Of a stretch of DNA of 64,000 nucleotides, positions 3,344 through 24,405 are shown one piece after another. The notes beneath the pieces are model-generated. The model ran no database searches, was not told the origin of the DNA, and saw only the letters and a list, made by a program, of their open reading frames with translations. The position numbers were made by a program, and so were the translations under genes. The stretch spans positions 2,108,001 to 2,172,000 of the forward strand of contig NZ_CP142396.1 of assembly GCF_035934735.1 (NCBI RefSeq), in the 5' to 3' direction. Position 1 is the stretch's first letter, and every line of letters starts with the position of its first letter. Source of the stretch: Sedimentibacter sp. MB31-C6. GTDB taxonomy: Bacteria; Bacillota; Clostridia; Tissierellales; Sedimentibacteraceae.

Positions 3344-3850
3344 ATGCATATATCAATGCCAGTTTCAGATTCACTTATTAGTGAGTTAAAAATTAATGAT
3401 ACAGTAAAAATATCTGGAGTAATATATTGTGGTAGAGATGCTGTATTGCCTAAGATAGTAAAGCTTATAGACGATGGCAAGTGGGATGAAAAAAAAGTAA
3501 ATTTAAATGGTACTGCGATTTTTCATACTGCTGTTAGTCCAGCAGGAATAGGACCTACTTCAAGTAATAAGTTAGATATAGAGTCATCTATTCCAGAGTT
3601 GTCAAAGGCAGGAGTTAAGCTACATATAGGAAAAGGTAGCCTAAGCAAAGAAACAGTTGAAGCTTTAAAAAAATACAATTCAATTTTTCTGGTTACTCCT
3701 CCAAATACTGCTTTACTTACTTCAAAAATTAAAAGTAAAGAAGTAGTAGCGTTTAAAGAACAAGGTATGGAGGCATTTACTAGAATAGATGTTGTTGATT
3801 TTCCAGCCATAGTAGCAATAGCACATGGAAAGTCAATATTTGATAAATAA
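3344..3850 (+). CDS. Fumarase/mesaconase-type hydro-lyase, beta subunit
   Basis: A 168-residue protein of the class I fumarase/tartrate dehydratase beta family, with the family features GTAIFHTAVSP (family: ALFHaGP-like), GPTSSNKLD and AIAHGKSIFD. It forms with the next gene a [4Fe-4S] hydro-lyase. In this setting, with methylaspartate ammonia-lyase and citramalate-lyase-type genes, hydration of mesaconate to citramalate is the best reading; fumarate or tartrate are alternatives that sequence alone cannot exclude. It is the first gene of the island, with GGGAGAGG before ATG. The alpha gene follows after 10 bases. Subunit family is firm, substrate is inferred. Confidence 0.88.
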   Translation: MHISMPVSDSLISELKINDTVKISGVIYCGRDAVLPKIVKLIDDGKWDEKKVNLNGTAIFHTAVSPAGIGPTSSNKLDIESSIPELSKAGVKLHIGKGSLSKETVEALKKYNSIFLVTPPNTALLTSKIKSKEVVAFKEQGMEAFTRIDVVDFPAIVAIAHGKSIFDK

Positions 3851-3860
3851 GGAGGAAGTA

Positions 3861-4718
3861 ATGATAAAGTATGAAGATATTGTATTAAAAACAGCAGATA
3901 CCCTTGTTAAAGCAAGTACAACATTTAGTCCAGATAAAATTGAAGCTTATGAAAAAGCAATGGTAATTGAAGAAAATAGTAATGCTAAGTGGGTTCTAGA
4001 AAATATTTTGGAGAATAGTCAAGTAGCTAAAGCTACAAAGTTTCCATTGTGTGATGATACTGGGATACCACATGTATTCTTAGAAGTTGGAGATAAGGCA
4101 ATATTACCAGAGGGTTTTATAGGCGCAATAGAAGAAGGTGTTAGAGAAGGCTTAAGAAAATTACCAGGAAGGCCAATGGCAGTAAAAGGTAATGATAAAG
4201 AGCGTATTAGTCAAAGTTGTGGCTTATTCGAAGATTCTGGAGAATTAGCAATGGCGCCAATACAAATTCGAGAAAAGAAAAATTGTGATAAGGTAGCTTT
4301 AACAGTTTTAATGTTAGGTGGAGGACCAGAAATAAGGGGAAAAACCTTAAGAGTATTCCATAAGCATTCAGAGCAAGTAGTAATAGATGAAATGATTGAA
4401 TGGGCTAAGGAAGGTTGTGGTAAATTAGGTTGTTTACCGGCAGTATTAGGATTTGGTATAGGCAGAACAAATTTAGAAGCAGCTTCCTTATCACTAGAAG
4501 CGATGAGATATGGGAATTTTTTAATTCAATCTGACATAGAAAAAGAAATAACACAAAAAGTTAATGAATCCGGAATTGGTCCATTAGGATTAGGAGGAAA
4601 AACTACAGTATTAGGAACTTTTGTTAAAGTTGGACCTCAAAGGGCAAGTGGTGTTCGAATAGTCTCTATGAGAGTAGGATGCTGTTTTGATCCAAGAAGA
4701 GCAACAGTAACGCTATAA
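3861..4718 (+). CDS. Fumarase/mesaconase-type hydro-lyase, alpha subunit
   Basis: A 285-residue protein carrying the Fe-S core of class I fumarases: Cys64 in FPLCDDTGIP, Cys186 in KEGCGK, and Cys274/Cys275 near the C-terminus before DPRRATVTL, plus the conserved NESGIGPLGLGGKTT segment. These cysteines would hold a [4Fe-4S] cluster whose free iron binds the hydroxy acid. ATG 3861 is chosen because GGAGG lies directly in front and an upstream in-frame start overlaps the beta gene. Two-component mesaconases of glutamate-fermenting clostridia belong to this family, so mesaconate hydration to citramalate is likely; the specificity remains an inference from neighbours. Confidence 0.9.
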   Translation: MIKYEDIVLKTADTLVKASTTFSPDKIEAYEKAMVIEENSNAKWVLENILENSQVAKATKFPLCDDTGIPHVFLEVGDKAILPEGFIGAIEEGVREGLRKLPGRPMAVKGNDKERISQSCGLFEDSGELAMAPIQIREKKNCDKVALTVLMLGGGPEIRGKTLRVFHKHSEQVVIDEMIEWAKEGCGKLGCLPAVLGFGIGRTNLEAASLSLEAMRYGNFLIQSDIEKEITQKVNESGIGPLGLGGKTTVLGTFVKVGPQRASGVRIVSMRVGCCFDPRRATVTL

Positions 4719-4749
4719 AAACTTTTTTAAAAATATAGGAGGATTTGCA

Positions 4750-6096
4750 ATGATAATTTTAAAGGATGGTCTTGTAGTAACAGGTGATGGTGTAACATTA
4801 TATGAAAAGGCCAGTGTGTTAATCAGAGATAATGAAATATTAGGAGTAGTTGAAAGGTTAGATCCATCAATTGAAGCTTATGCTGATGAGGTTGTTGATT
4901 GTACAGGTAAAGCTATTATGCCAGGGATGATAAATCAACATCAACATGGAGTTACTTTCGGTCCTATATTTGCAAGTGGAATGATTAATTATGGAAAAGA
5001 TAGAATAATGGAACTTCTTGACAGAAACTTTTTACAAGGTTGTACTACAGTATTAAATGTTGATGGATTTGTAACAATGGATGAAGTAAATGAAACGCAG
5101 AAACATCATCCAATGAGAATAAAAACAGCTACAACACATGCCCCAATTAATTATGAAGCTGGTTTACGATGTGATGGTAAAGGTTTGACAGAAAAGCATA
5201 AGACTATGACTATCGAAAAAATGCTTGCAGATGGAGCTGTTTGTATAGGAGAAGTAGGAGGCGGACATACTCTTGGCGGAGGTGGACAAGACTATCTTTA
5301 TATACCAAAAGCAGTAAAAGAAGCAAAGGGTGTAGATATAGATTATTTACAGGCCAGAACTTTAAAATTGGGTGTATTAGGTAGATACATAGAAGAAAGT
5401 TATTACGACAAAGATACAGTTGCAGCTGCGTTAAAGGAAGCTAAATTAGATCATATATTAACACCAGAAGAAACTAGAGATCTTGTGTATAAAACAACTC
5501 TTGCATCAGTAAAAGTTGCAATAGATGGATATATGGAAGCTGCACACATAGCAAAAAGATTAGATGTTCCATTATTATGCCATAATGCACCTACTTCAAA
5601 AAAAGTTATTCATGAAGTAGCAAAAGTTGGATTAAATAATTTTGTCGCATGTCATTCTAATTATTTATTTACTAAAGATGAAGCTGTAGAAAACACTAAA
5701 ATATTAAAACAAAATAGCGGAGTGATAATTGAAGCTTGTACACATGATCCTTGGGGTGCAAAAAGATTAGTAGCTAATCCAGAAAACTTATATGCTTTCT
5801 ATGAAGAAGATTTAATTGATGTAGTATCTACAGATTTTGCAAATGGAAGCTTTGATTCAATGCTTGAAGCAGTGCAACATGGAGTTGAAAAGGGTTTAGT
5901 GTCTCTTCCAAAAGCAATAGCTCAATGTACTAAAAATGTAACAGAAGCTATTCCATTGTTGGCACCAAACTTAGGGCAATTAAAAGAAGGATACACTGCA
6001 GATGTATTGGTAACATCATATCCTAACTTTTCAAATGTTGAAAGAATTTATATAGATGGAAAATTAGTAGCTAAAGATGGAAAAAAATTAGTATAA
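4750..6096 (+). CDS. Enamidase-like metal-dependent amidohydrolase
   Basis: A 448-residue amidohydrolase-superfamily barrel. Visible metal ligands are His64 and His66 (NQHQHG), Glu167 in CIGEVGGG, His277 (LCHNAP), His301 (ACHSNY) and Asp361 (STDFAN). A bridging glutamate in a GEVG motif, instead of a carbamylated lysine, is a feature of enamidase from the Eubacterium barkeri nicotinate pathway, and the spacing HxH-GEVG is alike. It probably hydrolyses a cyclic amide or enamide formed by the ring hydroxylase and reductase of this island. The C-terminus (GQLKEGYTADVLV) closes the usual small beta domain. AGGAGG precedes the ATG. Exact substrate unknown; imidazolone- or SsnA-like hydrolysis are alternatives. 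Confidence 0.8.
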   Translation: MIILKDGLVVTGDGVTLYEKASVLIRDNEILGVVERLDPSIEAYADEVVDCTGKAIMPGMINQHQHGVTFGPIFASGMINYGKDRIMELLDRNFLQGCTTVLNVDGFVTMDEVNETQKHHPMRIKTATTHAPINYEAGLRCDGKGLTEKHKTMTIEKMLADGAVCIGEVGGGHTLGGGGQDYLYIPKAVKEAKGVDIDYLQARTLKLGVLGRYIEESYYDKDTVAAALKEAKLDHILTPEETRDLVYKTTLASVKVAIDGYMEAAHIAKRLDVPLLCHNAPTSKKVIHEVAKVGLNNFVACHSNYLFTKDEAVENTKILKQNSGVIIEACTHDPWGAKRLVANPENLYAFYEEDLIDVVSTDFANGSFDSMLEAVQHGVEKGLVSLPKAIAQCTKNVTEAIPLLAPNLGQLKEGYTADVLVTSYPNFSNVERIYIDGKLVAKDGKKLV

Positions 6097-6169: not shown

Positions 6170-7420
6170 ATGAAAGTTAAAAAAGTAATATGTTCAAAAA
6201 TTATGACAGGATTTTATATGGATGATAAGGAAGCTATTAAAAGGGGAGCGGAACCAGATGGCTTTGTATACAAAGGAGAACCTGTTACTAAGGGATTTAA
6301 AACTATAAGACAACCTGGACAAGCTGTATCAGTTATGTTTGTTTTAGAAAATGGAGAGATAGCATATGGAGATTGCGCAGTAGCACAATATGCTGCTAGT
6401 GGTGGAAGAGAAGTTCCAAATACTGCAGAAGCTTTAATAGAAGTAATAGAAAAATATGTAACTCCTATGTTTGAAGGAATGGATATAAAAGAATTTAAAT
6501 CAACAGCCGAAAACTTTGACCGTAAATTATTTGATGGAGTTCAATTACCAGCTTCTATTAGATATGGTGTTACACAAGCGATACTTGAAACTGTTGCTAT
6601 AGAAAGAAAAATTACAATGGCTGAAGTTGTAATTGATGAATACGGATTAGAGATAGATTTAACACCAGTTAGAATAAATGCTCAATCTGGTGATGAAAGA
6701 TATACAAATGTAGATAAGATGATTTTAAAAGAAGTTGGTATGATGCCTCACGGTTTAATTAATAACGTTAAGACTAAATTAGGTGAAGATGGACAGATAT
6801 TCTTAGATTGGGTTAAATGGGTTAAAAATAGAATTCAAGAAATTGGTGATCCAAACTACAATCCAGTAATGAGATATGACGTATATGGATGTATGGGATA
6901 CGCATTTAATGATGATTTAGATAAGGTTGTAGAATATTTGCTTAAAGTTGAAGAAGCATGTTCACCATATACTGTATTTATTGAAATGCCAATAGATTTA
7001 AAATCAAATGACAAACAATTAGCTGGGTTTAGATATCTAAGAAAGAAATTAGATGAAGCAGGTTCGAAATTGAAATTAATAATTGATGAATATGCAAATA
7101 CTTATGAACAAATTGTTGAGTGGGTAGACGCTAAGGGTGCAGATATGATTCAGGTAAAAACAATCGACCTTGGTGGTATAAACAATATAATTGAAGCAGT
7201 ATTATACTGTAAGAAACATGGAATTATAGCGTATCAAGGTGGAACTTGTAATGAAACAGATAAATCCGCAAGGGTTTGTGTTAACTTAGCAGTTGCTACA
7301 AAACCATTTGCTATGGCTGGAAAACCAGGAATGGGTGTTGATGAAGGAGTTATGATTGTAAATAATGAGCAAGAAAGATTGTTAAAAATATTAGAAGCAA
7401 AAAAGAATAATCTAGTTTAG
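6170..7420 (+). CDS. mal: 3-Methylaspartate ammonia-lyase
   Basis: A 416-residue enolase-superfamily protein closely resembling Clostridium tetanomorphum methylaspartase (413 residues). The residues known to act there are all present: Gln172, His194 (MMPHGL), Asp237, Glu272 and Asp306 as magnesium ligands, Gln328 and the catalytic base Lys330 (QVKT), and Thr359-Cys360 (GGTCNET). The reaction is removal of ammonia from L-threo-3-methylaspartate to give mesaconate, the substrate of the hydro-lyase encoded just upstream. No glutamate mutase gene is in the window, so methylaspartate either comes from a mutase encoded elsewhere or directly from the heterocycle opened by this island. GGAG lies before the ATG; the next gene follows after 9 bases. 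Confidence 0.95.
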   Translation: MKVKKVICSKIMTGFYMDDKEAIKRGAEPDGFVYKGEPVTKGFKTIRQPGQAVSVMFVLENGEIAYGDCAVAQYAASGGREVPNTAEALIEVIEKYVTPMFEGMDIKEFKSTAENFDRKLFDGVQLPASIRYGVTQAILETVAIERKITMAEVVIDEYGLEIDLTPVRINAQSGDERYTNVDKMILKEVGMMPHGLINNVKTKLGEDGQIFLDWVKWVKNRIQEIGDPNYNPVMRYDVYGCMGYAFNDDLDKVVEYLLKVEEACSPYTVFIEMPIDLKSNDKQLAGFRYLRKKLDEAGSKLKLIIDEYANTYEQIVEWVDAKGADMIQVKTIDLGGINNIIEAVLYCKKHGIIAYQGGTCNETDKSARVCVNLAVATKPFAMAGKPGMGVDEGVMIVNNEQERLLKILEAKKNNLV

Positions 7421-7429: not shown

Positions 7430-8959
7430 ATGATTTCTGTTAGTATTGATAAGTGCGTAGGTTGTAGAGAATGTTCTCGTGTTTGCCCAATGGAGGCTAT
7501 TGAGATTATTGATAAGAAAGCTGTTGTTAACAAAGATGATTGTGTTAATTGCAAAAGCTGTATTAAGGTATGTAAATTTAATGCACTAGAAGAGATAGAA
7601 GATACTAACCCTAATTCCGTAGTTTGTACAAACTGCGGAGTTAGATGTATCATTCCAAATAAAAAAGATGGCGCATGTAAACGATTCACAAATGATAATG
7701 GTAAATTGTTTAGAAATAGACCTTTGCAGATACCTGACAACATAGAGCCAGATAAAGAAAAAATTGCAATAAGTAGACCTTTAATAACAGCAGTTGGAGC
7801 AGGAGCAAGTTATCCTGATTACCACCCAGCACCATATATTGTTGAAGAAAATATTGATGATTTTGATGTAGTTACTGTTGTTACAGAGGCTCCAATATCA
7901 TATAGTTCAATGATGGTAAAAATAGATACCAATATTCATATTGGTGATGAAAGCGCTGTCGTAAGAAGAGATGGCAAAGAAGTAGGAACAATAAGTACTG
8001 AGCAATACGGCTCTCAAATTTTAATACTTGGAGGAGTTAATAGAGTCAAAGGACCTCATGGTATGACAGTTGTAAAAACTATGACTGAAATTGGTAATAA
8101 AAAACTAGTAAAATTAAAAATCGATGGCGGTTCAACAATAGAAATACAAGTTGGAAAACCACCGATAATCGACGGTGTTGAGGATACAAAGATGAGAGTA
8201 GGGTGTGGTGGTGCATGTTGTGGATTATTTGCAAAACATCTAGGTAAATTAATAGATGAAGCAATAATATTAGACCATCATATAACAGGATTATTTACAA
8301 AACACCCTGCTGGAGCTGAACAATTACCATATAGTGGAGTAACACCCGTTGGAAGACTTGCCACTCCTGGTAGATATTTCTTTGAACATGGTAAAGGCTG
8401 GGGTGGAACTAATGTAGAAAATCCAGCTGAAGCAATAAAAGATATTGATATGACAATAGCAAAACCAGGTATGAAAATATTAGTAGCAGAAACAACTTGG
8501 AGGAATATTGCATTATTTGAAGTTAGTGAAGAAGGTAAAGCAGTAGAGATTGAAATACCATTAGAATTAGAAGAATTTAGACAAATGGCTGCTGAAAATT
8601 GTGAAGATAGTAAGGTTTCTGCCATGTATTATGCAGGTGTAGGAGGAAGTGCAAGAGCTGGAGTTACAGTTAATCCTATTAAGCTTACTCAGGCAGTACA
8701 CAAAGGAGATGCAGTTTTAAGTATTGCAGGTGCAGAAACATTCCTAATGCCAGGTGGAGGTATATCATTTTTATCAGATGTTGAAAAAATGGTAGACGAA
8801 CCATTTAATTATACAGCATCACCAGCTGTATTAGCCCCAATAGAATATACAATTGTAAAAGAAAAATATGATGAAATAGGGGGTCATATAAAGGCAGTTA
8901 GAAAATTAGATGACGTAAAGAAAGAAGGAAGATACGAATATACGAAGTTGAAAAAATAG
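7430..8959 (+). CDS. 6-Hydroxynicotinate-reductase-like iron-sulfur protein
   Basis: A 509-residue protein with an N-terminal two-cluster ferredoxin domain (Cys9, 12, 15, 19 and Cys38, 41, 44, 48), a third cysteine group (Cys66, 69, 73, 83), and a long C-terminal domain containing GCGGACCG (Cys259, 263, 264) and GGSARAGVTVNP near residue 405-416. The architecture fits the ferredoxin-dependent 6-hydroxynicotinate reductase of E. barkeri, which reduces a hydroxylated pyridine ring. Here it would reduce the lactam made by the molybdenum hydroxylase before the amidohydrolase opens it. The family has been reported to carry covalent flavin; the ApbE-like gene at 11.98 kb could supply it. Similarity is judged by eye, so function is tentative. 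Confidence 0.68.
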   Translation: MISVSIDKCVGCRECSRVCPMEAIEIIDKKAVVNKDDCVNCKSCIKVCKFNALEEIEDTNPNSVVCTNCGVRCIIPNKKDGACKRFTNDNGKLFRNRPLQIPDNIEPDKEKIAISRPLITAVGAGASYPDYHPAPYIVEENIDDFDVVTVVTEAPISYSSMMVKIDTNIHIGDESAVVRRDGKEVGTISTEQYGSQILILGGVNRVKGPHGMTVVKTMTEIGNKKLVKLKIDGGSTIEIQVGKPPIIDGVEDTKMRVGCGGACCGLFAKHLGKLIDEAIILDHHITGLFTKHPAGAEQLPYSGVTPVGRLATPGRYFFEHGKGWGGTNVENPAEAIKDIDMTIAKPGMKILVAETTWRNIALFEVSEEGKAVEIEIPLELEEFRQMAAENCEDSKVSAMYYAGVGGSARAGVTVNPIKLTQAVHKGDAVLSIAGAETFLMPGGGISFLSDVEKMVDEPFNYTASPAVLAPIEYTIVKEKYDEIGGHIKAVRKLDDVKKEGRYEYTKLKK

Positions 8960-8971
8960 TTGGAGGTTTTT

Positions 8972-10906
8972 ATGAAAGAGTTGTTTGCAGATTATAAGGA
9001 AGGTGGAAAAAAAAGACAACTTGTTGGTAATGATAAAAAGATTATTAAAGTAATAGCAGTTATTATGTCTCTTTATCAGCTATGGCAAAGTGTTTTTTCA
9101 TCAATGCAACCTCAGATGCATTATGCAATTCATTTAACATTTATTTTAGTATTATGTTATTTGTATTTTACACCTTCTCAAAATAAAGATAGAACAAAAA
9201 TTTTAAAAATAGATTATATTGTAGCTGCAGTAATAATAGTAATTGGAATCTATTATGTATCTCAAATTCAAAGATATTTAGTTAGATGGCCACAAGTAGA
9301 TCCATTGAGTGCAGCTGACATTATTTTTGGGATTATTTTAGCAGTTTTAGTAATTGACGGTACAAGAAGAACAATGGGTATGGTGTTACCATCTATAGGG
9401 ATTTTCTTCTTATTATATGCTTTGTTTGGTGATTTTTTGCCGGGTTCCTTTGGACATAGATTTATTTCCCCAATAGATATATTAGACCAACTTGTTTTTA
9501 CGACAAATGGAATTTTTACTTCACCAATAGCTGTTTCATCAACATTTGTATTCTTGTTCTGCTTATTCGGTTCATTTTTTAATCACTCTGGAGCTGGTGC
9601 CTTTTTTCACAAATTCTCAATGGCAGTAGCAGGTAAATATGCAGGAGGAGCTGGTAAAGTATCAGTAATTTCTTCAGGTTTATTTGGTATGATTAATGGT
9701 AGTCCAACGGCTAATGTTGCAACTATAGGTTCCTTTACGATACCAATGATGAAAAGAGAAGGATATGATTCAGTTTTTGCTGGAGCGATTTCAGCAGTAT
9801 CCTCAACTGGTGGAGGTATTATGCCTCCTATTATGGGAACAGCTGCATTTCTAATGGTAGAAATGGCAGGAGTACCATACAAAAATATTGCAATTGCGGC
9901 GGCTATTCCAGCTGCGTTATATTATGGTTCATTGCTTCTTATATGTCACTTAAGAGCAAAGAAAACAGGTCTTAAGGGCCTCCCTGATGACGAGGTACCA
10001 AATTTAAAACAAACATTAAAAGAAGGATTCCTCTTCTTTTTACCGCTGATTGTATTAGTTGGTATGATAATGATGGGTTACACACCTTCTCTTGCAGCAG
10101 TAGCAGGTATAGTATGTGTAATTATAGCAAGTTCATTAAGAAAAGAAACAAGAATGAGCTTAGAAACTATAATTAAGGCTTTAGAAGAAGGGGCTTTATC
10201 TTCAATAATAGTATCTTTATCTTGTGCAGTAGCAGGTATGGTAATATGTGGATTAATGATTACAGGTTTAACAGGTAAAATTGCTAGTTTAGTATTAAGT
10301 GTTGGTGGTGGAAGTTTGTTTGCAGCCCTTCTTATAACAGCAGCTTTATGTACTTTACTTGGAATGGGAATGCCGGTTGCCGCTGCATATGCACTGACAG
10401 CATCTTTGGCTATTCCGTCATTAATTGAATTAGGAGTACCATTACTAGCTGCTCATATGTTTGTAGTGTATTATTCAACTTTTTCAGCTATTACACCTCC
10501 AGTTGCAGTTGCTAGTTATGCAGCAGCAGGGATTGCAGATGCTAATGCTACCAAAATTGGATGGGCTGCGTGTCGAATTGGTGTTATATGTTTTATAGTA
10601 CCATTTATGTTTGTATTTGATACATCATTATTGGCTGAACCATCAGACTTTTTAAATATTAGTACCTATATAATGATTTTAACAGCATTTTTAGGGGTGT
10701 ATTCTTTAAGCGCAAGTTCAGAAGGATATTTAAAAGCTAAATTAAACATCGTTGCTAGAGTGTTGTTATTTGCATCAGGATTAACGATGATATACCCCGA
10801 AACTCTTACGAGTATTATAGGTATAGCAGTGTTTGCAACAATTTATTTAATGCAGACAGTGAAAATTAAAAAAAGTAATGAACAAATAGCAATTGAAAAA
10901 AACTAA
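8972..10906 (+). CDS. TAXI-type TRAP transporter, fused small and large permease
   Basis: A 644-residue membrane protein with a DctQ-like N-terminal third of four segments joined to a DctM-like domain of about a dozen segments (GAGAFFHKFSMAVAGKYAGG, NGSPTANVATIGSFTIPMMKR, GGGIMPPIMGTAAFLM, SAITPPVAVASYAAAGIA). Such fused permeases work with TAXI periplasmic-type binding proteins, and one follows at 10928. The pair probably imports the carboxylated substrate of the island driven by ion gradients. ATG 8972 is preferred because TGGAGG ends six bases before it; the upstream TTG overlaps that ribosome site. The ligand is unknown. Confidence 0.93.
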   Translation: MKELFADYKEGGKKRQLVGNDKKIIKVIAVIMSLYQLWQSVFSSMQPQMHYAIHLTFILVLCYLYFTPSQNKDRTKILKIDYIVAAVIIVIGIYYVSQIQRYLVRWPQVDPLSAADIIFGIILAVLVIDGTRRTMGMVLPSIGIFFLLYALFGDFLPGSFGHRFISPIDILDQLVFTTNGIFTSPIAVSSTFVFLFCLFGSFFNHSGAGAFFHKFSMAVAGKYAGGAGKVSVISSGLFGMINGSPTANVATIGSFTIPMMKREGYDSVFAGAISAVSSTGGGIMPPIMGTAAFLMVEMAGVPYKNIAIAAAIPAALYYGSLLLICHLRAKKTGLKGLPDDEVPNLKQTLKEGFLFFLPLIVLVGMIMMGYTPSLAAVAGIVCVIIASSLRKETRMSLETIIKALEEGALSSIIVSLSCAVAGMVICGLMITGLTGKIASLVLSVGGGSLFAALLITAALCTLLGMGMPVAAAYALTASLAIPSLIELGVPLLAAHMFVVYYSTFSAITPPVAVASYAAAGIADANATKIGWAACRIGVICFIVPFMFVFDTSLLAEPSDFLNISTYIMILTAFLGVYSLSASSEGYLKAKLNIVARVLLFASGLTMIYPETLTSIIGIAVFATIYLMQTVKIKKSNEQIAIEKN

Positions 10907-16036: not shown

Positions 16037-16513
16037 ATGCAAGAGATAAAATTTATTTTAAATGGAGAAAATGTAACTGTTAAGGTGAATCCTAATGAAA
16101 CGTTATTAAAGGTTTTAAGAGAAAAACTTGGAATGACTGGCACAAAGGAAGGCTGCGGAGAAGGCGAATGTGGAGCCTGCACTGTTATTTTCGACTCAAG
16201 ACCAGTTAATTCTTGCATCATACCTGCTGCTAAAGTAAATGGTAAGGAAGTTTTAACAATTGAAGGGCTAAGTAAAAATGGTGAACTTCATCCAATACAA
16301 GAAGCATTCATCGAGGCTGGAGCAATACAATGTGGTTTCTGTACACCAGGAGTTGTTTTATCAGCTAAGGCTATATTAGATAAATATGATGATCCTGATG
16401 AAGAAACAATAAAAGATGAGTTATCAGGTCATTTATGTAGATGCACTGGGTATTTACAGTTCTATGATGCTATAAAACTAGCAGTTGAAAAAATTAAAGA
16501 AATGAAAAAATAA
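16037..16513 (+). CDS. Molybdenum hydroxylase, [2Fe-2S] small subunit
   Basis: A 158-residue subunit with the two expected cluster sites: the plant-ferredoxin-type motif GCGEGECGACTV near residues 39-50, and the second domain's QCGFCTPG and HLCRCTGY near residues 97-135. Length and cysteine pattern match CoxS/XdhC-type small subunits. It relays electrons from molybdenum to FAD. GGTAGGTGAT precedes the ATG, and the gene follows the FAD subunit by 4 bases. Confidence 0.95.
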   Translation: MQEIKFILNGENVTVKVNPNETLLKVLREKLGMTGTKEGCGEGECGACTVIFDSRPVNSCIIPAAKVNGKEVLTIEGLSKNGELHPIQEAFIEAGAIQCGFCTPGVVLSAKAILDKYDDPDEETIKDELSGHLCRCTGYLQFYDAIKLAVEKIKEMKK

Positions 16514-16538: not shown

Positions 16539-19007
16539 ATGAAAGAAGTTAATTTGTTTTCACCTATTAAAATTAAGATATTAGAGCTTCCTAATAGGGT
16601 TATAATGTCACCTATGTTTTCAAATTCAGCAGGACCAAAGGGAGAGGTAACACAAAATACAATTAATCATTATGTTGACAGAGCTAGGTCTGGAGTTGGC
16701 TTAATTATGACTGAGCATACTAGTGTATGCTCAAAGTATATACATCCTGGCAATAGACTTCAAATTAGTGAAGACTTTCATATTGAAGGTTTAAAAAGGC
16801 TTGCAGACGCTGTGCATAAAGAAGGATGTAAGATAGGTTTGCAAATTGCACATTCTATACATGGAAAGAATAAAGTTCCTTCTGATTTAACAAATGAAGA
16901 ATGTTATAAAATAATAGATGATTTTGTAGAAGGTGCTAGAAGAGCAAAAGAAGCAGGTTTTGACACAATAGAACTTCATTATGCACATACCTATACTATG
17001 GCTGACTTTATTTCCAAACGAACAAATACCAGAACGGATGAGTTTGGTGGAGATATATATGGCAGAATGTTTATGCATATAGAAATTCTAAAAAGAGTTA
17101 GAGAATTAGTAGGAGAAGAATATCCATTATTTGCGAGAATAAGCGCTGAAGAATTTATAGTCGGTGGAAATACTTTAGTACAAACTAGAATTTTTGCAAA
17201 AGAATTAGAAAAGTATGGTATAGACTGTATGGATGTATCAGCTGGTGTAAGATTTGATGACGGTGGGCTAAAGGGATACAGTGACCAAAGAGGTAAACCT
17301 ACTATTGAATATCCAGATGGACCTAATGTTTATTTAGCAGAGGATATTAAAGAGCATGTTAGTATTCCAGTAGTAACAGTAGGAAAATTAGGTAATCCTG
17401 ATGTGGCAAAAGAAGTTATAGAAACAGGAAGAGCAGATTTAGTTGCATTAGCTAGACCTTTGATTGCAGACCCAATGTGGGTTAATAAGGTTAAAGCTAA
17501 TAGATATGATTTAATAAAATCTTGTTTATATTGTAATGAATGTTTATATGAAAGACATGACCCTGATGCATATGTTCATTGTATGAGATATACTTGTCAA
17601 AATGCATGTCCAGCAAATGTTAAAGTTCCTGTATATATAGATTTGGCATATCATAACAAATGTGAAGAAGCATATGAAGTTATACAAAGCGAAAATCCAT
17701 TAGCAGTAGCTTGTGGTAGAATTTGTAATCATTTATGTGAGTCTATGTGTAACAGAGTTAAAATAGACAATCCTGTTGGAATTAAAAATATTAAAAGATA
17801 TGTTACAGATAAATTAATGGAAGATAATATTGATTTCCCTGTACCTAAAATAGAAAAAGAAAACAATAAAAAAGTTGCAATTATAGGTTCTGGACCATCA
17901 GGTTTATCTTGTGCATTTTATTTGAGAAAAAAAGGATATGACGTGACTGTATATGAAGCAGCAGATAGAATAGGTGGAATGCTAGTATATGGAATACCAG
18001 AATATAGACTTCCTAAAGATTTATTAGAAAAAGAGTTAGAAGTATTTAGAAAAATGGGTATTAAATTCATTACTAATAAAACATTTGGTGTAGACATAAC
18101 AAAATCTCAATTATTAGAACAAGGATTTAAAGCCATTTACTTAGGCATAGGTGCTCAAGGTGGTAGAAAACTAAACATACCAGGAGAAGAAGCGCAAAAT
18201 GTATTGTCAGGAGTAGAGTTTTTAAATAAAGTAAGTAAAGGCGAAAATATAGGAATTGAAAATAAAGAAGTTGTAATTGTTGGTGGTGGGAATGTTGCAA
18301 TGGACGCAGCTAGAACTGCTATAAGACTTAATGCTAAGAAAGTAAAATTATATTGTCTTGAGGATAGAAAAACAATGCCAGCTAGTGGAGAAGAAATAGA
18401 CTTTGCTTTAAAAGATGGTGTATTTATAAATAATAGCTGGGGTCCTAAGGAAATTACAGCAAGTGATGGAAAGGTTGACTCAATTTCATTTAAGGAATGT
18501 GTTTCTGTTATTAATGAAGGTAGATTTAATCCAATTTATAATGAAGACAATGATATAATTGTAAAAGCTGACTTTGTAATATCTGCAATTGGACAAAGTG
18601 TTGACTGTGAAGCATTTAAAGATGACTTAAGAGAAATTGTAAATCCTAGAGGTATTACAGCTAGTTTTGGTGGTTTCACAAGTATACCATATGTATTTTC
18701 TGGTGGAGATTGTATTGCTGCACCTGCATCAGTTGTAAAATGCACAAATGATGGAAAGCTTGCTGCAGGCTCTATTGACAAATTTTTAGGTGGAGATGGT
18801 CAAGTCGTAAGAATTAAGTCTCATGAAAGAGTAATGACTCATGAAATAAATGAAGAGCCACAAAAAAGAGCAGAACAAGAATATATTCCATTAGATAAAT
18901 TAAATAGCAAATTTGACGAATGTGAAAAGGTAATAACATACGACCAAGTAAAATGTGAAGCGTCAAGATGTTTAAGATGTGATGTATTAAAGATAAATAA
19001 ACTATAA
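16539..19007 (+). CDS. Old-yellow-enzyme/GltD fusion, FMN-FeS-FAD oxidoreductase
   Basis: An 822-residue multidomain reductase. Residues 1-325 form an OYE-type FMN barrel with LQIAH near 101, His147 and His150 in the active-site region and TRTDEFGG. A 4Fe-4S site like that of 2,4-dienoyl-CoA reductase follows (Cys329, 332, 335, 348). Residues 350-410 hold a cysteine-rich block (Cys353, 357, 375, 392, 396, 400, 404) like the N-terminal domain of GltD and dihydropyrimidine dehydrogenase. The rest is a GltD-type FAD/NAD(P)H module (GSGPSG at 450, VGGGNVAMDAAR near 583). It may move electrons between NAD(P)H and the hydroxylase or ring reductase, or reduce a ring double bond itself. Substrate unknown. 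Confidence 0.82.
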   Translation: MKEVNLFSPIKIKILELPNRVIMSPMFSNSAGPKGEVTQNTINHYVDRARSGVGLIMTEHTSVCSKYIHPGNRLQISEDFHIEGLKRLADAVHKEGCKIGLQIAHSIHGKNKVPSDLTNEECYKIIDDFVEGARRAKEAGFDTIELHYAHTYTMADFISKRTNTRTDEFGGDIYGRMFMHIEILKRVRELVGEEYPLFARISAEEFIVGGNTLVQTRIFAKELEKYGIDCMDVSAGVRFDDGGLKGYSDQRGKPTIEYPDGPNVYLAEDIKEHVSIPVVTVGKLGNPDVAKEVIETGRADLVALARPLIADPMWVNKVKANRYDLIKSCLYCNECLYERHDPDAYVHCMRYTCQNACPANVKVPVYIDLAYHNKCEEAYEVIQSENPLAVACGRICNHLCESMCNRVKIDNPVGIKNIKRYVTDKLMEDNIDFPVPKIEKENNKKVAIIGSGPSGLSCAFYLRKKGYDVTVYEAADRIGGMLVYGIPEYRLPKDLLEKELEVFRKMGIKFITNKTFGVDITKSQLLEQGFKAIYLGIGAQGGRKLNIPGEEAQNVLSGVEFLNKVSKGENIGIENKEVVIVGGGNVAMDAARTAIRLNAKKVKLYCLEDRKTMPASGEEIDFALKDGVFINNSWGPKEITASDGKVDSISFKECVSVINEGRFNPIYNEDNDIIVKADFVISAIGQSVDCEAFKDDLREIVNPRGITASFGGFTSIPYVFSGGDCIAAPASVVKCTNDGKLAAGSIDKFLGGDGQVVRIKSHERVMTHEINEEPQKRAEQEYIPLDKLNSKFDECEKVITYDQVKCEASRCLRCDVLKINKL

Positions 19008-19067: not shown

Positions 19068-20099
19068 ATGGATACTAGCTTAAAACTTAAAGAAATTTTT
19101 TTAAATTATCAGCCAGAGAAGCAATTATTAAAAAATTTTTTAAATAGTTGTGATTTAGAATTAGATGAAGATGTTGAGTATGCGGTAGGACTTTATGATG
19201 ATAAAGATGAAATTGTCGGATGTGGTGCATTTAGTAAAAATGTTTTGAAGTGTTTTGCAGTTAAAGAAGAATTAAGAGGTTTAAATGCATTGAACACTAT
19301 TGCAACACATTTAATAAATAAGCAATATGAAAGAAAAGTATATCATTTGTTTGTTTATACAAAACCAAAAAATATAAAATTTTTTCAAAATTTAGGATTT
19401 AATGTTGTTGAATGTGTTGAGTATGTTGTATTACTTGAAAATGTTAAAAATGGTATCAATGATTATTTAGCTTCTTTAGAAAATCCTGAAAAGATATCTA
19501 AAGATATTGGTGCCATTGTTATGAATTGTAATCCTTTTACACTAGGTCATGAGTATATTATTGAATATGCATCAAACAATTGTGATTTATTACATATATT
19601 TTTAGTTGAAGAAGATAAATCTATATTTCCATTTGAAATTAGATATGAATTAGTGAAAGAGGGAGTTTCTAAGTTTAACAATATTATACTGCATAGAAGT
19701 GGTAATTATATAATTTCTTCAACAACATTTCCAACGTATTTTATTAAGGATAAATATAAAAGGGCAAATGTATATGCAGAGTTAGATTTAAATATTTTTG
19801 CTAAGCATATTGCTCCAGCATTAAATATTACTAAAAGATTTGTAGGGCATGAACCATATTGTGCAGTGACAAATCAATATAATAATCTCATGAAAAAAAT
19901 ACTACCAATTCATAATATAGATGTAGTTGAAATAGAAAGAAAAGAAATCAAAGGGAAAGCAATAAGCGCTTCATCTGTAAGAGATAGCATTAAAAAATAT
20001 GGTATTTCTGAGGAATTGAAGGAATTGGTTCCAATAACAACTTATAATTTCTTAAAAAGTAAAAAAGCAAAAAAAATAATTGAGAATATTAAAAATTAA
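19068..20099 (+). CDS. citC: [Citrate lyase]-ligase type acetyltransferase
   Basis: A 343-residue protein with a GNAT-like N-terminal half and a nucleotidyltransferase half marked by IGAIVMNCNPFTLGHEYIIE (HxGH-like motif) and the ISASSVRDSIKK motif (ISxTxxR-like). CitC acetylates the prosthetic-group thiol of the acyl carrier subunit with acetate and ATP, activating the lyase. It heads the lyase gene set citC-D-E-F-G-X. In clostridial citramalate lyase the same activation chemistry applies, and context favours that substrate. The ribosome site is weak (AAGGATAGTGAATA), consistent with low need for the ligase. Confidence 0.92.
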   Translation: MDTSLKLKEIFLNYQPEKQLLKNFLNSCDLELDEDVEYAVGLYDDKDEIVGCGAFSKNVLKCFAVKEELRGLNALNTIATHLINKQYERKVYHLFVYTKPKNIKFFQNLGFNVVECVEYVVLLENVKNGINDYLASLENPEKISKDIGAIVMNCNPFTLGHEYIIEYASNNCDLLHIFLVEEDKSIFPFEIRYELVKEGVSKFNNIILHRSGNYIISSTTFPTYFIKDKYKRANVYAELDLNIFAKHIAPALNITKRFVGHEPYCAVTNQYNNLMKKILPIHNIDVVEIERKEIKGKAISASSVRDSIKKYGISEELKELVPITTYNFLKSKKAKKIIENIKN

Positions 20100-20162
20100 T
20101 AATTTTTTTATATAAATTAACATAGCTTAAATTTTAAATTTATGACTATGAGGAGGTGCAAT

Positions 20163-20456
20163 ATGAAGTTAACAACATTAGGTTATGCCGGAAGTCTAGA
20201 ATCAGGTGACTTATACGTAGTAACTAAACCTAACCTAGATAAAGGCATAAAGATTGAAATTGAAAGTATTGTAAAAATGCAGTTTGGCGATGCTATTCAG
20301 GAAACCATTAAAAATGTATTGAAAAGCTTTGGCGTAACAGATGCAATTGTAGAAATTAACGATCAAGGTGCTTTAGATAGCGTTATCAAATCAAGGGTAC
20401 AAGCATCTTTGTGTAGATCAGCAGAAATTACAGAATTTGAATGGGGAAGGTATTAA
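20163..20456 (+). CDS. citD: Citrate/citramalate lyase acyl carrier protein (gamma subunit)
   Basis: A 97-residue carrier protein. Ser14 in AGSLESGDLYV is the conserved attachment site for the phosphoribosyl-dephospho-CoA group. The substrate is carried as a thioester on this arm between the alpha and beta subunits. ATG 20163 follows GAGGAGG; a longer upstream reading would include the ribosome site. The citE gene starts one base after its stop codon. Confidence 0.95.
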   Translation: MKLTTLGYAGSLESGDLYVVTKPNLDKGIKIEIESIVKMQFGDAIQETIKNVLKSFGVTDAIVEINDQGALDSVIKSRVQASLCRSAEITEFEWGRY

Positions 20457-20457
20457 C

Positions 20458-21354
20458 ATGAATAAGGAAAAATTAAGAAGATCATTATTATATGTTAGTG
20501 GTAGTAAGCCAGGTGGTATTTCTCAAGCTCCATTTTATGGCTCGGATTGTATAATTTATGATCTTGAAGATTCTGTTCCTATAACAGAAAAGGATGCTGC
20601 TAGGTTTTTAATATTTAATACACTTAAGAAAAAAAGACCAGAAAATATTGAGATAATAGTAAGAGTAAATGGAATGGATACACCATTTGCAGAGCAAGAT
20701 CTTGAAGCAATAGTTAGAGCTAAACCTGATATAGTAAGATTCCCTAAAATAGAGACTCCAGAAGATGTTAAATTAGCAGATGAATATATTTCTAAGGTGG
20801 AGTTAGAAGCAGGAATAGAAGTTGGAAGCACTAGAATAATAGCTGGTATGGAAACTCATACAGGAGTATTGAATGCAAGGGAAATAGCTACGGCAAGTAA
20901 AAGGATAGTTGCCATTTCAATAGGTGGAGAAGACTTTACTGCTAGTATGAAAACAACACGTTCAGTTGAAGGGATGGAAATGTTTTATGCTAGAAATGCA
21001 ATATTAATAGCAGCTAGAGCAGCAGGAGTACAGGCAATAGATACAGTATTTTCTGATATAAATAACACTGAAGGGTTAATTGAAGATACAAAGTTAATAA
21101 AAAGATTAGGCTTTGATGGTAAATATTTAATTCATCCAAGGCAGGTTGAGCCTGTAAATAATGTATTTACACCAAATAAAAAAGAAATTCAAAATGCAGT
21201 AAGGATTCTTAAAGCATTAGAAGAAGCAAATAAGAAAAATCTTGGAGTAGTTGCGTTGGATGGTAAGATGATAGATGCACCTGTAGTGGATAGAGCAAAA
21301 AGAGTAATAGCACTTGCTGAAGCATCAGGGGTAATTGCTGGAGGTGAAATATAA
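20458..21354 (+). CDS. citE: Citrate/citramalate lyase beta subunit
   Basis: A 298-residue HpcH/HpaI-type aldolase of the CitE family: LLYVSGSKPGG near the start, YDLEDSVP with the acidic metal ligands, the RFPKIETPEDV strand and IGGEDFTAS. It cleaves the acyl-thioester to acetyl-carrier and a 2-oxo acid: oxaloacetate from citryl or pyruvate from citramalyl. Citramalate is favoured here because mesaconate-forming and mesaconate-hydrating genes are in the same island; sequence alone does not settle this. ATG 20458 follows GGGGAAGG. Its TAA overlaps the citF start codon by one base. Confidence 0.93.
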   Translation: MNKEKLRRSLLYVSGSKPGGISQAPFYGSDCIIYDLEDSVPITEKDAARFLIFNTLKKKRPENIEIIVRVNGMDTPFAEQDLEAIVRAKPDIVRFPKIETPEDVKLADEYISKVELEAGIEVGSTRIIAGMETHTGVLNAREIATASKRIVAISIGGEDFTASMKTTRSVEGMEMFYARNAILIAARAAGVQAIDTVFSDINNTEGLIEDTKLIKRLGFDGKYLIHPRQVEPVNNVFTPNKKEIQNAVRILKALEEANKKNLGVVALDGKMIDAPVVDRAKRVIALAEASGVIAGGEI

Positions 21355-22910
21355 TGGCTAAAAACAGTGTAGGAAGAGATATTCCTGAATACATAGGAAA
21401 TAGAAAATTAATTCCATATATGGGTCCATTTGAAAAAGAACCTGATTCTATTATAAAAGTTAATAAAAGACAATCTAAAATTTTACCAGGTGAAAGTAAA
21501 ATTAAATCAACTATAAAAGATGCAATTATTTCTAGTGGATTAAAGGATGGTATGACAATATCTTTCCATCATCACTTTAGAGAAGGTGATAAGGTAATAG
21601 GATTAGTATTAACTATAATTAAAGAGTTAGGTATAAAGAATTTAAGATTTGCACCTAGTGCGGTTATTAACATTAAAAATCCTTCAATTGTTGATTTCGT
21701 TAAAGATGGAACTATTTCAAGAATTGAAGCCAGTGGTATTAGAGGTCAATTAGGTGATGCTGTTATCGAAGGTTTTATGGATGAGCCAGTAGTACTTCGT
21801 ACACATGGTAGTCGTCCTAGAGCTATTGAATCAGGGGAACTTTCTATAGATATTGCTTTTATAGCAGCTTCTGCAAGCGATGATTATGGTAATGCAAATG
21901 GATTTTCAGGACCTAATGCTTGTGGTTCTTTAGGTTATGCAATGATAGACGCTAAAAGTGCTGAAAAGGTTATAGTTATTACAGATACATTAGTTGATTT
22001 TCCCTGTGTACCCGCTTCTATATCACAACATGAAGTTGATTATGTTGTTGTAGTAGATGAAATAGGAGATAGTGCATCAATTGGAAAAGGGGCAGCAAGG
22101 GTTACTAAGAATCCTAGAGATCTATTAATAGCTAAAAATACTGCAAATGTTATTGCAAATTGTGGTTACTTTAATGATGGTTTTACATTTTTAACAGGAG
22201 TTGGAGCAACATCTATAGCATGTATTCAATTCTTAAGAGAGAAAATGATAGAAAAAAATATTAAAGCTGGGGCAGCTATTGGTGGTATTCCAGCTGCAGT
22301 AGTAAAACTTCATGAGGAAGGTTTAGTTAAAGTAGTTGAAGCTGTTCAATGTTTTGATGCAGAATCAGCTAAAGCTTTAGGACAAAGTAATACTATTTGC
22401 GAATGTGATAATAATGTATACTCTAATGTTCATAACAAAGGAAATATGGTTAATAAAGTGGATATTGGAATATTAGCCGCACTGGAGGTAGATACTGACT
22501 TTAATGTTAATATACTTACTGGATCTAGTGGAGAAATGTTGGGAGGTCTTGGTGGTGGACCTGATGTTGCTGCTGGTGCACAGGTTTCTATTGTAACAAT
22601 TCCACTATTTAGAGGAAGAACACCATCTATAGTTAAAAAAGTATTTACTTTATGTACACCAGGAGAAACTGTGGCATTAGTTGTAACAGAGTTAGGAGTT
22701 TCGATTAATCCAAAGCATAAAAATTATGAGTTTTTAAAAGAAAATTTAAGTAAATCTAATATAAAAATTATACCAATTGAAGATTTGCAGCAAATGGCAG
22801 AAGAAATTACAGGAACACCAAAACCTATCGAATGTACAGATAAAGTTGTTGCTGTTGTTGAATATAGAGATGGAACAGTTATTGATGTAATAAGACAAAT
22901 AAAAAAATAG
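21354..22910 (+). CDS. citF: Citrate/citramalate lyase alpha subunit (CoA-transferase-like)
   Basis: A 518-residue alpha subunit of the CitF family, with SFHHHFREGD and the glycine-rich GSSGEMLGGLGGGPDVAAGA near residue 387, both family signatures. It exchanges the acetyl group on the carrier for the incoming acid, forming the acyl-carrier thioester. It overlaps citE at TAATG, which gives translational coupling and equal subunit amounts. A strong hairpin follows its stop codon, separating it from the low-demand citG and citX genes. Confidence 0.95.
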   Translation: MAKNSVGRDIPEYIGNRKLIPYMGPFEKEPDSIIKVNKRQSKILPGESKIKSTIKDAIISSGLKDGMTISFHHHFREGDKVIGLVLTIIKELGIKNLRFAPSAVINIKNPSIVDFVKDGTISRIEASGIRGQLGDAVIEGFMDEPVVLRTHGSRPRAIESGELSIDIAFIAASASDDYGNANGFSGPNACGSLGYAMIDAKSAEKVIVITDTLVDFPCVPASISQHEVDYVVVVDEIGDSASIGKGAARVTKNPRDLLIAKNTANVIANCGYFNDGFTFLTGVGATSIACIQFLREKMIEKNIKAGAAIGGIPAAVVKLHEEGLVKVVEAVQCFDAESAKALGQSNTICECDNNVYSNVHNKGNMVNKVDIGILAALEVDTDFNVNILTGSSGEMLGGLGGGPDVAAGAQVSIVTIPLFRGRTPSIVKKVFTLCTPGETVALVVTELGVSINPKHKNYEFLKENLSKSNIKIIPIEDLQQMAEEITGTPKPIECTDKVVAVVEYRDGTVIDVIRQIKK

Positions 22911-22913
22911 GAC

Positions 22914-22952: not shown

Positions 22953-22974
22953 AGAATGATTGCGGAGTAAAATC

Positions 22975-23838
22975 ATGACTGAAATTACAAAAGGAAAAGT
23001 ATGTATTAAATTAAGTGAATTTGCAGTAGAATCTATGCTTTACGAGGTTGCATGTTACCCTTCGTTTGGTCTTGTATCACCTATATCTAGCGGATCTCAT
23101 ACAGATATGGATTTTTTCACTTTCATTAATAGTACAACTTGTTTAGCACCATTTATGTATGAATTCGCCAATAAATCTTATAATAGTGAAAAACCTAAGG
23201 ATGTATTTAGAGAAATTAGATTACTTGGTATAAAAGCAGAAAAGTTAATGTATAAAAAAACAAAAAATGTCAATACACATAAAGGTATGATTTTTACATT
23301 AGGTTTATGTGTAGCTGCAGCTTCCAAATGCATTTATAATAAAAGAGATTTTACTTACATTAAAAATACTATAAAAAATATGACAACTGGTATAGTAGAA
23401 AAAGAATTGTACAATATAAGGCATGAAAATCTTTCAAATGGGGAAAAAACTTTTTTAAAATATGGACATACGGGTATAAGAGGAGAAGCAGAAGCAGGAT
23501 TCCCTATTATTTTTGACTTAGCATTACATACTTATGAAGGTTGTTATGATTTAAGTGAAAATGATAGGTTAGTTCAGACATTAATTACAATTATGCAATA
23601 TACAGAGGACAGCACTATATTATATAGACACAATGCTGATATATTAAAGGAAGTTCAAGGAATTTGCAAATATATTATAGAAATTGGAGGCATGTACTCT
23701 GAAAGAGGTAGGCAAAATATTAATGCATATTCTAATAATTTTGAAAATAGGAATATAAGTCCTGGAGGAAGTGCTGATTTATTAGCTTGTACTGTTTTTT
23801 TAAGTAAAGTTAAAAAATTATTTTTTAGTAAATTGTAA
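22975..23838 (+). CDS. citG: Triphosphoribosyl-dephospho-CoA synthase
   Basis: A 287-residue CitG-family protein, recognised by LYEVACYPSFGLVSPISSGSH-like N-terminal block (positions 15-40), the NTHKGMIFTLG motif near 105, and the GIRGEAEAGF and NISPGGSADLLA segments. It makes the precursor of the lyase prosthetic group from ATP and dephospho-CoA. ATG 22975 follows GCGGAG. The gene follows the hairpin after citF and precedes citX. Confidence 0.92.
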   Translation: MTEITKGKVCIKLSEFAVESMLYEVACYPSFGLVSPISSGSHTDMDFFTFINSTTCLAPFMYEFANKSYNSEKPKDVFREIRLLGIKAEKLMYKKTKNVNTHKGMIFTLGLCVAAASKCIYNKRDFTYIKNTIKNMTTGIVEKELYNIRHENLSNGEKTFLKYGHTGIRGEAEAGFPIIFDLALHTYEGCYDLSENDRLVQTLITIMQYTEDSTILYRHNADILKEVQGICKYIIEIGGMYSERGRQNINAYSNNFENRNISPGGSADLLACTVFLSKVKKLFFSKL

Positions 23839-23865
23839 AATAAATGCATATGAAAGGTGATAATA

Positions 23866-24405
23866 ATGGAAGTTAGTAATAATTTCGTTGAGAACTTTTT
23901 AAGAGATAGGGATAAGAGGGTAGAATATCAGAAAAAATTGAGTAATAAGTATCATAAATCCATTGTATGTATTAGAGTCAATTTTCCAGGAATAAATAAG
24001 GACAATGTTACATCAAGAAAAATTAATGAAATAATATATAATATTCTAACTGGTATGATTAAAGACAAAATAATATATGAAAATTCATTTGTGACACTTG
24101 AAGGACCAATATCCATTTTAGTTGTCAATGAAAAATCAAATCAATTGAAAGAAAATTGCCTGCAAATAGAAGAATATCATCCGTTAGGGAGAATAGTTGA
24201 CATTGATGTATACGATGAAAACTATAAAGGATTAAGTAGAGTTAGTTTTGGTAGAATGCCAAGGAGATGTTACTTATGTGATGAATTAGCAGTTGTTTGT
24301 TCTAGAACTAAAAGGCATCCAGAAACAGAAATAGTATCCTTTATTGAGAGAAGTTTATGGGAATATGAGTATAATATTGAGAATAATGATTATAATACCG
24401 TTTAA
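23866..24405 (+). CDS. citX: Holo-lyase synthase (apo-citrate lyase phosphoribosyl-dephospho-CoA transferase)
   Basis: A 179-residue CitX-family protein: FLRDRDKRVEYQKKL near the N-terminus, CIRVNFPG, the HPLGRIVDIDVYD block and RRCYLCDELAVVCSRTKRHP near residue 135-155. It attaches the prosthetic group to Ser14 of the carrier subunit. ATG 23866 lies after AAAGGTGAT. It is the last gene of the island; its stop codon sits inside the loop of the terminator hairpin. Confidence 0.93.
   Translation: MEVSNNFVENFLRDRDKRVEYQKKLSNKYHKSIVCIRVNFPGINKDNVTSRKINEIIYNILTGMIKDKIIYENSFVTLEGPISILVVNEKSNQLKENCLQIEEYHPLGRIVDIDVYDENYKGLSRVSFGRMPRRCYLCDELAVVCSRTKRHPETEIVSFIERSLWEYEYNIENNDYNTV

Follow-up and report, generated by a model that had tools for sequence, protein, structure and literature searches.

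Two described fermentations stand closest to the locus studied here. The nicotinate fermentation genes of Eubacterium barkeri encode a hydroxylase, Hnr, an enamidase, a mutase, an isomerase and a dimethylmaleate hydratase; the nearest characterized type of Hnr is presumably a pyridine-ring reductase. The glutamate pathway of the Clostridium tetanomorphum type uses glutamate mutase, methylaspartase (methylaspartate ammonia-lyase, MAL), mesaconase and citramalate lyase. We analyzed a 64,000-nucleotide stretch of Sedimentibacter sp. MB31-C6 (contig NZ_CP142396.1; hereafter the window), which is C1:2108001-2172000 of a 3.02 Mb, two-contig genome that is 99.57% complete (G000). Its operon of 18 closely spaced genes, all on the + strand at 3344-24405, combines gene families of both types.

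The operon is probably a system for the anaerobic catabolism of quinolinate (pyridine-2,3-dicarboxylate), with substrate and activities all predicted from gene content. By a narrower balance, we favor a complete, previously undescribed fermentation that would yield acetate and 2-oxoglutarate, with 2-amino-3-carboxyadipate, trans-homoaconitate and homocitrate as intermediates. It would employ a wide-pocket methylaspartase that evolved naturally, rely on one of three kinds of enzyme to cleave homocitrate (CitDEF, citryl-CoA synthetase/lyase, perhaps AtuA/DUF4387) and be spread over Synergistota and Bacillota.

A sequence-only reading had described the run as a single pathway that imports, hydroxylates, reduces, hydrolyzes, deaminates, hydrates and cleaves an N-heterocycle. 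Each gene it named lies on the co-directional run and matches its expected family in our open reading frame (ORF) list and profile searches. It passed over an 822-aa protein in which an Old Yellow Enzyme (OYE)-type flavin reductase is fused to a GltD-type NAD(P)H-binding module. Its "complete citramalate-lyase-type set" holds at family level: the lyase and maturation genes citC, D, E, F, G and X are all present, citE alone falling short of its curated cut-off, and the families themselves do not settle the substrate.

The operon, its relatives and nicotinate-type loci

The same gene set occurs in 13 other genomes, which cannot be chance. A first MAL search gave G546 (83%) and G574 (82%). An alignment of the three MALs was then searched, with two peptide patterns, against contigs of 84,980 species, covering 149 stretches; members without these patterns escape it. 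Among the best 80 of 94 relatives, 13 loci showed 71-85% MAL identity, and the next relative stood at 51%. Seven loci are in Synergistota (L101-L106, L110). The rest are in Bacillota: Candidatus Formimonas warabiya DCMF (L107), Clostridiales PH28_bin88 (L108), a Desulfovirgula metagenome-assembled genome (L109), Lutispora saccharofermentans (L111), UBA7994 (L112, apparently G546) and Cuneatibacter sp. NSJ-177 (L113). The 14 cluster genomes are thus G000 and 13 others, 11 of them reached through loci, besides G546 and G574.

As far as contigs extend, the related loci share a core of mesB, mesA, amidohydrolase, mal, hnr, UPF0280, xdh and OYE genes, mostly in the window's order; the short contigs of L112 and L106 show three and four of them. 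L108 and L109 are arranged differently, with lyase genes between mesA and the amidohydrolase gene and the OYE gene between mal and hnr. Identity to the window proteins is 64-76% for Hnr (n=13), 67-78% for the amidohydrolase (n=12), 66-78% for the XDH large subunit (n=10), 60-73% for MesA (n=11), 57-74% for MesB (n=11) and 57-85% for OYE (n=9, some partial). Pattern scans for the amidohydrolase in genome contigs and viral contigs confirmed no relative, and among 391 sampled genomes of the class it was found in the window genome alone. Since 12 related loci encode it, such scans miss much, and the same caution applies to the two-pattern MAL search.

Because the same core recurs across Synergistota and Bacillota, the operon very likely encodes a single pathway, as the sequence-only reading had proposed. 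Linkage was one half of the check set out with that reading, and within contig limits the ring genes and mal are linked in 13/13 related loci. There is scarcely any probability that the run consists of two or more unrelated operons adjacent by chance. Nothing but the novelty of the combination favors this, against a core shared by Synergistota and several Bacillota lineages and a locus, L113, in which cit and ring genes form one co-directional run after one sigma-54 site.

Comparison with Hnr loci of the same order separates the operon from the nicotinate type. Full-length Hnr relatives occur in nine of 199 genomes of the order, the window genome included; the other eight are 48-52% identical to the window protein and lie in nicotinate-type loci. 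One of them (L043) carries the nicotinate set of an aconitase pair, a B12 protein, PrpF, MutL, a phosphoenolpyruvate (PEP)-mutase-type lyase, an amidohydrolase and Hnr, and the remaining seven, compared by ORF length as far as their sequence extends, have a similar succession of ORFs. A UPF0280 gene adjoins hnr in all eight, which marks the UPF0280/ApbE-like protein as a partner of Hnr; it may be a flavin transferase. In none of the eight stretches does tblastn find a match to the window amidohydrolase, OYE, MesAB or MAL. Conversely, no 2-methyleneglutarate mutase, PrpF-type isomerase, aconitase-type hydratase or PEP-mutase-type lyase occurs among the genes at 2157-24405, so the nicotinate-specific steps are missing as the earlier account had stated. 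By gene content, the window cluster is not of the nicotinate type. Calling the reductase Hnr-like was apt; calling the amidohydrolase enamidase-like went too far, as the two share only a superfamily. The window amidohydrolase shares residues H64, H66, E168, H278, H302 and D362 with the Lutispora protein.

A variant methylaspartase and an absent glutamate mutase

To judge from the alignment, the window methylaspartase is a distinct subfamily with its catalytic residues kept and its 3-methyl pocket changed. We compared 90 ordinary rows (some fragments, with possible repeats between two sources) with 15 variant rows from 14 distinct genes, since L049 and L112 are apparently the same gene. Window positions 73, 172, 194, 237, 272, 306, 328, 330, 359 and 360, which we take to be catalytic or metal-binding, keep the expected residue in every variant row that reaches them. 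Position 170, where Phe presumably lines the methyl pocket, is Asn in 15/15 variants versus Phe (77), Tyr (10) or His (2) in ordinary enzymes. At position 383, which corresponds to Leu384 in C. tetanomorphum methylaspartase, 15/15 variants have Ala and 89/89 readable ordinary rows have Leu. Basic residues appear at position 168 (Arg in 13 variants and Lys in two, versus Pro in 82 of 89 ordinary rows and Arg in one) and at position 235 (Arg in 15/15, versus His in 88 and Gln in two). Altogether, 40 of 146 otherwise invariant positions differ in the variants, so the change reaches beyond the pocket.

These replacements indicate that the MAL substrate likely bears a larger acidic 3-substituent in place of methyl. 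Ala or Gly at Leu384 is reported to let methylaspartase aminate fumarates with large C2 substituents (PMC4517298), and PDB entry 3zvi has Ala at this position. In a predicted model (predicted local distance difference test, pLDDT, 89.6), residues 168-170, 235, 270 and 383 fall on predicted strands.

The altered pocket bears on both chemical routes offered earlier. Direct ring opening to 3-methylaspartate, followed by mesaconate, citramalate and acetate plus pyruvate, agrees with a MAL family score well above its cut-off. It is nonetheless very unlikely, and we rejected it on ring size, by chemical argument, and on the pocket: a simple lactam built from N, C-alpha, C-beta and the beta-carbonyl would have a ring of four members, we see no natural precursor, and the replacement of Leu384 and Phe170 in 15/15 variant rows would go unexplained.

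The second route opens the ring to glutamate, for example from pyrrole-2-carboxylate via 5-oxoproline, and continues through glutamate mutase, methylaspartase, mesaconase and citramalate lyase, with the mutase encoded elsewhere. Family membership of MAL, MesAB and CitDEF is compatible with it, but the mutase is missing. Glutamate mutase E (GlmE, PF06368) has 0 matches in G000 and is missing from 12/14 cluster genomes, whereas the same search found it in 19/20 genomes with ordinary methylaspartase (Fisher p = 2e-6, relatedness of genomes ignored). These controls were 20 of 22 such genomes (G263 and G314 left out), and the exception, G429, is 82% complete; two further ordinary genomes (L114, L115) both have GlmE. 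Genomes lacking it include G577 and G581, where the cluster is on a record described as a complete chromosome, as well as G546, which is 77% complete, and completeness values cover the cluster genomes other than the 11 reached through loci; in G578 and G582 it lies on contigs other than that of the variant mal. With the methyl-pocket residues also replaced, the glutamate route is highly improbable, and we rejected it. G000 has eight places with a B12 domain; one of them (L003), which has a MeaB-type GTPase and an epimerase as neighbors, reads as the small subunit of a methylmalonyl-CoA mutase.

The hydratase subunits also stand apart: window MesB is 33-37% and MesA 26-32% identical to mesaconases of ordinary methylaspartase clusters, which are 49-99% alike among themselves (MesA 49-95%). 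Because the glutamate route lacks its mutase and opening to 3-methylaspartate fits neither ring size nor pocket, the end products are probably acetate and 2-oxoglutarate rather than the acetate and pyruvate of the sequence-only reading.

A proposed quinolinate route and its final cleavage

The methylaspartase substrate constrains the ring. If lactam opening yields an aspartate with a larger acidic group on C3, the ring must read N-C(COOH)-C(COOH)-...-C(=O), and the six-membered lactam of this kind is 6-oxopiperidine-2,3-dicarboxylate, a reduced 6-hydroxyquinolinate. Quinolinate would enter by TRAP-TAXI and be hydroxylated at C6 by the molybdenum hydroxylase. The Hnr-like enzyme, with UPF0280 as maturation partner, would carry out a two-electron reduction of 6-hydroxyquinolinate, and the OYE/GltD reductase would reduce the remaining C2=C3 bond to give 6-oxopiperidine-2,3-dicarboxylate; the position of each ring reduction is inferred. 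Opening of this lactam by the amidohydrolase would yield 2-amino-3-carboxyadipate, an aspartate whose C3 carries CH2CH2COOH. The variant methylaspartase would remove ammonia by anti-elimination to form trans-homoaconitate, and a fumarase-type hydratase fits here because that product is trans. MesAB would then form homocitrate, and CitDEF would split it into acetate and 2-oxoglutarate. The seven step formulas balance, with the net reaction quinolinate + 3 H2O + 2[H] -> acetate + 2-oxoglutarate + NH3.

We favor quinolinate because this scheme uses every enzyme: hydroxylase, Hnr, OYE, amidohydrolase, MAL, hydratase and lyase. An OYE-family enzyme of Aspergillus nidulans, HxnT, is reported to reduce a hydroxylated pyridine ring (PMC9304392). 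Tables of two human faecal metabolome studies list 3-carboxyadipate, equal to homoaconitate plus 2H, with no link to the pathway shown (PMC7712156, PMC9063241).

Other ring acids were weighed by the same chemistry. Pyrrole-2,3-dicarboxylate could be hydroxylated and reduced to 5-oxopyrrolidine-2,3-dicarboxylate, opened to 3-carboxyglutamate, deaminated to aconitate and hydrated to citrate, which a true citrate lyase would split into acetate and oxaloacetate. The changed, basic MAL pocket fits this route, and the citrate-lyase and citryl-CoA-lyase families fit it even better than they fit homocitrate. However, 5-oxoproline-type lactams normally require ATP for opening and the enzyme here is a plain amidohydrolase, and the window Hnr is 48-51% identical to Hnr proteins of nicotinate-type loci, the nearest characterized type of Hnr being a pyridine-ring reductase. 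To our knowledge, pyrrole-2,3-dicarboxylate is not an abundant natural substrate either, and we regard it as quite unlikely. Imidazole acids were rejected by chemical argument: imidazolepropionate would lead to glutamate and imidazoleacetate to aspartate, with the pocket and the two ring reductases unexplained. Dipicolinate and picolinate were rejected likewise, as their ring opening cannot yield a 3-carboxylated aspartate.

The real substrate might instead be another N-heterocyclic 2,3-dicarboxylate, a substituted quinolinate or an upstream aromatic funneled to it, with downstream chemistry unchanged. Cluster anatomy fixes only the N-C(COOH)-C(COOH) unit and a lactam, and transporters vary between loci: TctA-type tricarboxylate transporters occur in L107 (TctA, upstream) and L109 (TctA/TctB, inside), L101 has an upstream sodium:dicarboxylate symporter as well as TRAP-TAXI, and L102 has a DctM protein ~5.7 kb upstream of mesB. 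Yet the loci compared share no additional modification gene, as judged from the genes of the window itself and some flanking ORFs, and we consider such a substrate unlikely.

Interchangeable genes point to the chemistry of the last step in the quinolinate scheme. The variant core has cit genes beside it in the window, in L113 and L107, and also in G575, the genome to which L101 belongs; in G575, citD, citE and citF follow the OYE gene by ~2-5 kb on the same strand. L108 and L109 instead carry a SucCD-like pair and a citryl-CoA lyase within the cluster (best PDB match 6hxp, citryl-CoA lyase, 2e-60), and G574 carries AtuA and DUF4387 in its cluster. A strong CitF match is found in 11/14 cluster genomes, with none in G574 or G582 and one weak match (28 bits) in G583. 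These three genomes are exactly those with an alternative lyase in the cluster (Fisher p = 0.003). Because a strong CitF match is missing exactly where the cluster carries an alternative, the pattern supports a retro-Claisen cleavage as the last step; homocitrate, citrate and citramalate are not told apart by it. Contigs of L105 and L106 end before the region after the OYE gene.

A similar exchange is seen in ordinary methylaspartase loci. Among 20 of them, 13 have mesAB and cit genes, five have AtuA and DUF4387 instead and two are incomplete. In those five (L078, L079, L080, L082, L094), AtuA and DUF4387 genes adjoin mal, the stretch has no mesaconase or cit match, and a 308-323-aa protein without a Pfam match comes next in the four scanned. 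AtuA and DUF4387 may replace mesaconase and/or citramalate lyase in ordinary loci; we found no mention of DUF4387 in the open-licence literature. G574 has a second AtuA with DUF4387 adjoining (C21:66811-67869, L098).

Several observations weigh against the quinolinate scheme. Four Synergistota genomes (G576, G577, G578, G584) have no recognized lyase gene in the stretch after OYE, though they carry CitF elsewhere. Citrate would suit the CitDEF and citryl-CoA-lyase families no less than homocitrate, MesAB and CitEF sequences do not reveal substrate specificity, and G000 encodes an AtuA protein elsewhere (C1:2329833-2331143, L097). In MAL, the conserved Arg270 is replaced by Phe, leaving a small net charge gain, and the pocket reading is based on alignment and general structural knowledge. 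Structure prediction for the amidohydrolase is poor (pLDDT 40). NadA is absent from 12/14 cluster genomes, which fits organisms using quinolinate as food but is a count with no matched control.

Neighboring genes and relation to known pathways

The operon is preceded by a sigma-54 (-24/-12) promoter-like site (Table 1). The same pattern lies upstream of the operon in L108, L109 and L111 and upstream of citC in L113; these four are the Bacillota loci that have a PrpR-type activator next to them. Upstream of mesB, 8 of 11 loci tested, L113 among them, have none. Genes directly after the window operon have no tblastn match in 26 stretches from related loci. After the OYE gene in L184 come five ORFs, one an IclR regulator and four without a Pfam match. 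Beside the cluster of Candidatus Formimonas warabiya lie citDEF, TAXI, TRAP, MmgE/PrpD and FAD_binding_2 genes and a second mesAB pair (51-55%) (L183:938-11872), perhaps a related tricarboxylate pathway.

Table 1. Operon and flanking features of the window, with family matches and proposed roles
Feature	Coordinates	Strand	Match or proposed role
XdhC-type, NTPase, methyltransferase, ABC_cobalt-type permease and ModE-like genes	14-3046		just upstream of operon; perhaps molybdenum cofactor supply
Sigma-54 (-24/-12) promoter-like site TTGGCATAAATTATGC	3288..3303	+	upstream of mesB; pattern has 4 matches in the 64-kb window, both strands
mesB, fumarase/mesaconase-type hydratase beta subunit (Fumerase_C)	3344..3850	+	PF05683 9e-26; proposed homoaconitate hydratase
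mesA, hydratase alpha subunit (Fumerase)	3825..4718	+	PF05681 1e-52
Amidohydrolase	4750..6096	+	Amidohydro_1 8e-7, superfamily level only; proposed 6-oxopiperidine-2,3-dicarboxylate (lactam) hydrolase
MAL family variant, changed pocket	6170..7420	+	TIGR01502 474 bits, cut-off 286; proposed 2-amino-3-carboxyadipate ammonia-lyase
Hnr-like ferredoxin-domain reductase	7430..8959	+	Fer4; proposed 6-hydroxyquinolinate reductase
TRAP transporter fused permease	8960..10906	+	TIGR02123 632 bits
TAXI solute-binding protein	10928..11944	+	TIGR02122 169 bits
UPF0280/ApbE-like protein	11957..12862	+	NF003322 200 bits, below 290 cut-off
Molybdenum hydroxylase large subunit	12875..15136	+	PF02738, PF20256
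Molybdenum hydroxylase FAD subunit	15151..16032	+	PF00941, PF03450
Molybdenum hydroxylase 2Fe-2S subunit	16037..16513	+	PF01799, PF00111
OYE + GltD-type reductase, 822-aa fusion	16539..19007	+	PF00724 7e-64, PF14691, PF07992; proposed second ring reduction, C2=C3
citC, [citrate lyase] ligase type	19068..20099	+	TIGR00124 343 bits, over cut-off
citD, acyl carrier protein	20142..20456	+	TIGR01608 105 bits, over cut-off
citE, lyase beta subunit	20437..21354	+	TIGR01588 381 bits, below 443 cut-off
citF, lyase alpha subunit	21354..22910	+	TIGR01584 624 bits, over cut-off; sole CitF match in G000
citG, prosthetic-group synthesis	22960..23838	+	TIGR03125 279 bits, over cut-off
citX, holo-acyl carrier protein synthase	23857..24405	+	TIGR03124 147 bits, over cut-off
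Zinc alcohol dehydrogenase and class I/II aminotransferase	24550-26794		directly after operon
Second TRAP fused permease, DUF1850, TAXI protein, YcbB-type response regulator with histidine kinase	26927-32869	-	
Tetrahydrofolate (THF) riboswitch aptamer	33879-33971	-	75 bits

Quinolinate is an excitotoxin (a neurotoxin) and a precursor of NAD (a vitamin B3 precursor). We found no description of its degradation by this route or gene set in the open-licence literature (older subscription work lay outside that scope). If the scheme is right, it is a new N-heterocycle fermentation with two proposed activities, 2-amino-3-carboxyadipate ammonia-lyase and homocitrate lyase, and nature arrived at the same Leu384 change as methylaspartase engineers. 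The operon would then offer a concrete gene marker for microbial quinolinate removal, and some anaerobes, including Cuneatibacter sp. NSJ-177 and Lutispora saccharofermentans, could destroy quinolinate. It also sets an annotation trap: family models call these proteins methylaspartase, fumarase-type hydratase and citrate lyase, and the locus would be read as glutamate or citrate fermentation.

The operon shares features with several known systems. Like the C. tetanomorphum-type methylaspartate pathway, it brings the families of MAL, fumarase-type hydratase and CitDEF-type lyase together in a single run, but it lacks glutamate mutase, its MAL pocket is changed and ring chemistry is placed before. 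The three-gene set of citryl-CoA synthetase and citryl-CoA lyase recurs inside the L108 and L109 clusters, where, unlike in the citryl-CoA system, it would take the place of CitDEF, with homocitrate or a similar acid as its substrate. In A. nidulans hxn nicotinate catabolism, as in the scheme, a pyridine acid is hydroxylated at C6 and a reductase of the OYE family (HxnT) works on the hydroxylated pyridine ring (PMC9304392). The hxn system uses monooxygenases, another ring opening and other products. As in E. barkeri nicotinate fermentation, a molybdenum hydroxylase and an Hnr-family reductase with a UPF0280 neighbor precede ring opening by the amidohydrolase superfamily and a last cleavage of a hydroxy acid. 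The operon lacks the B12 mutase, PrpF isomerase, aconitase-type hydratase and PEP-mutase-type lyase, all of which L043 has; its Hnr is only ~50% alike and its amidohydrolase has no detectable tblastn likeness. It has an OYE reductase and MAL in addition, and the nitrogen would be kept as an amino acid.

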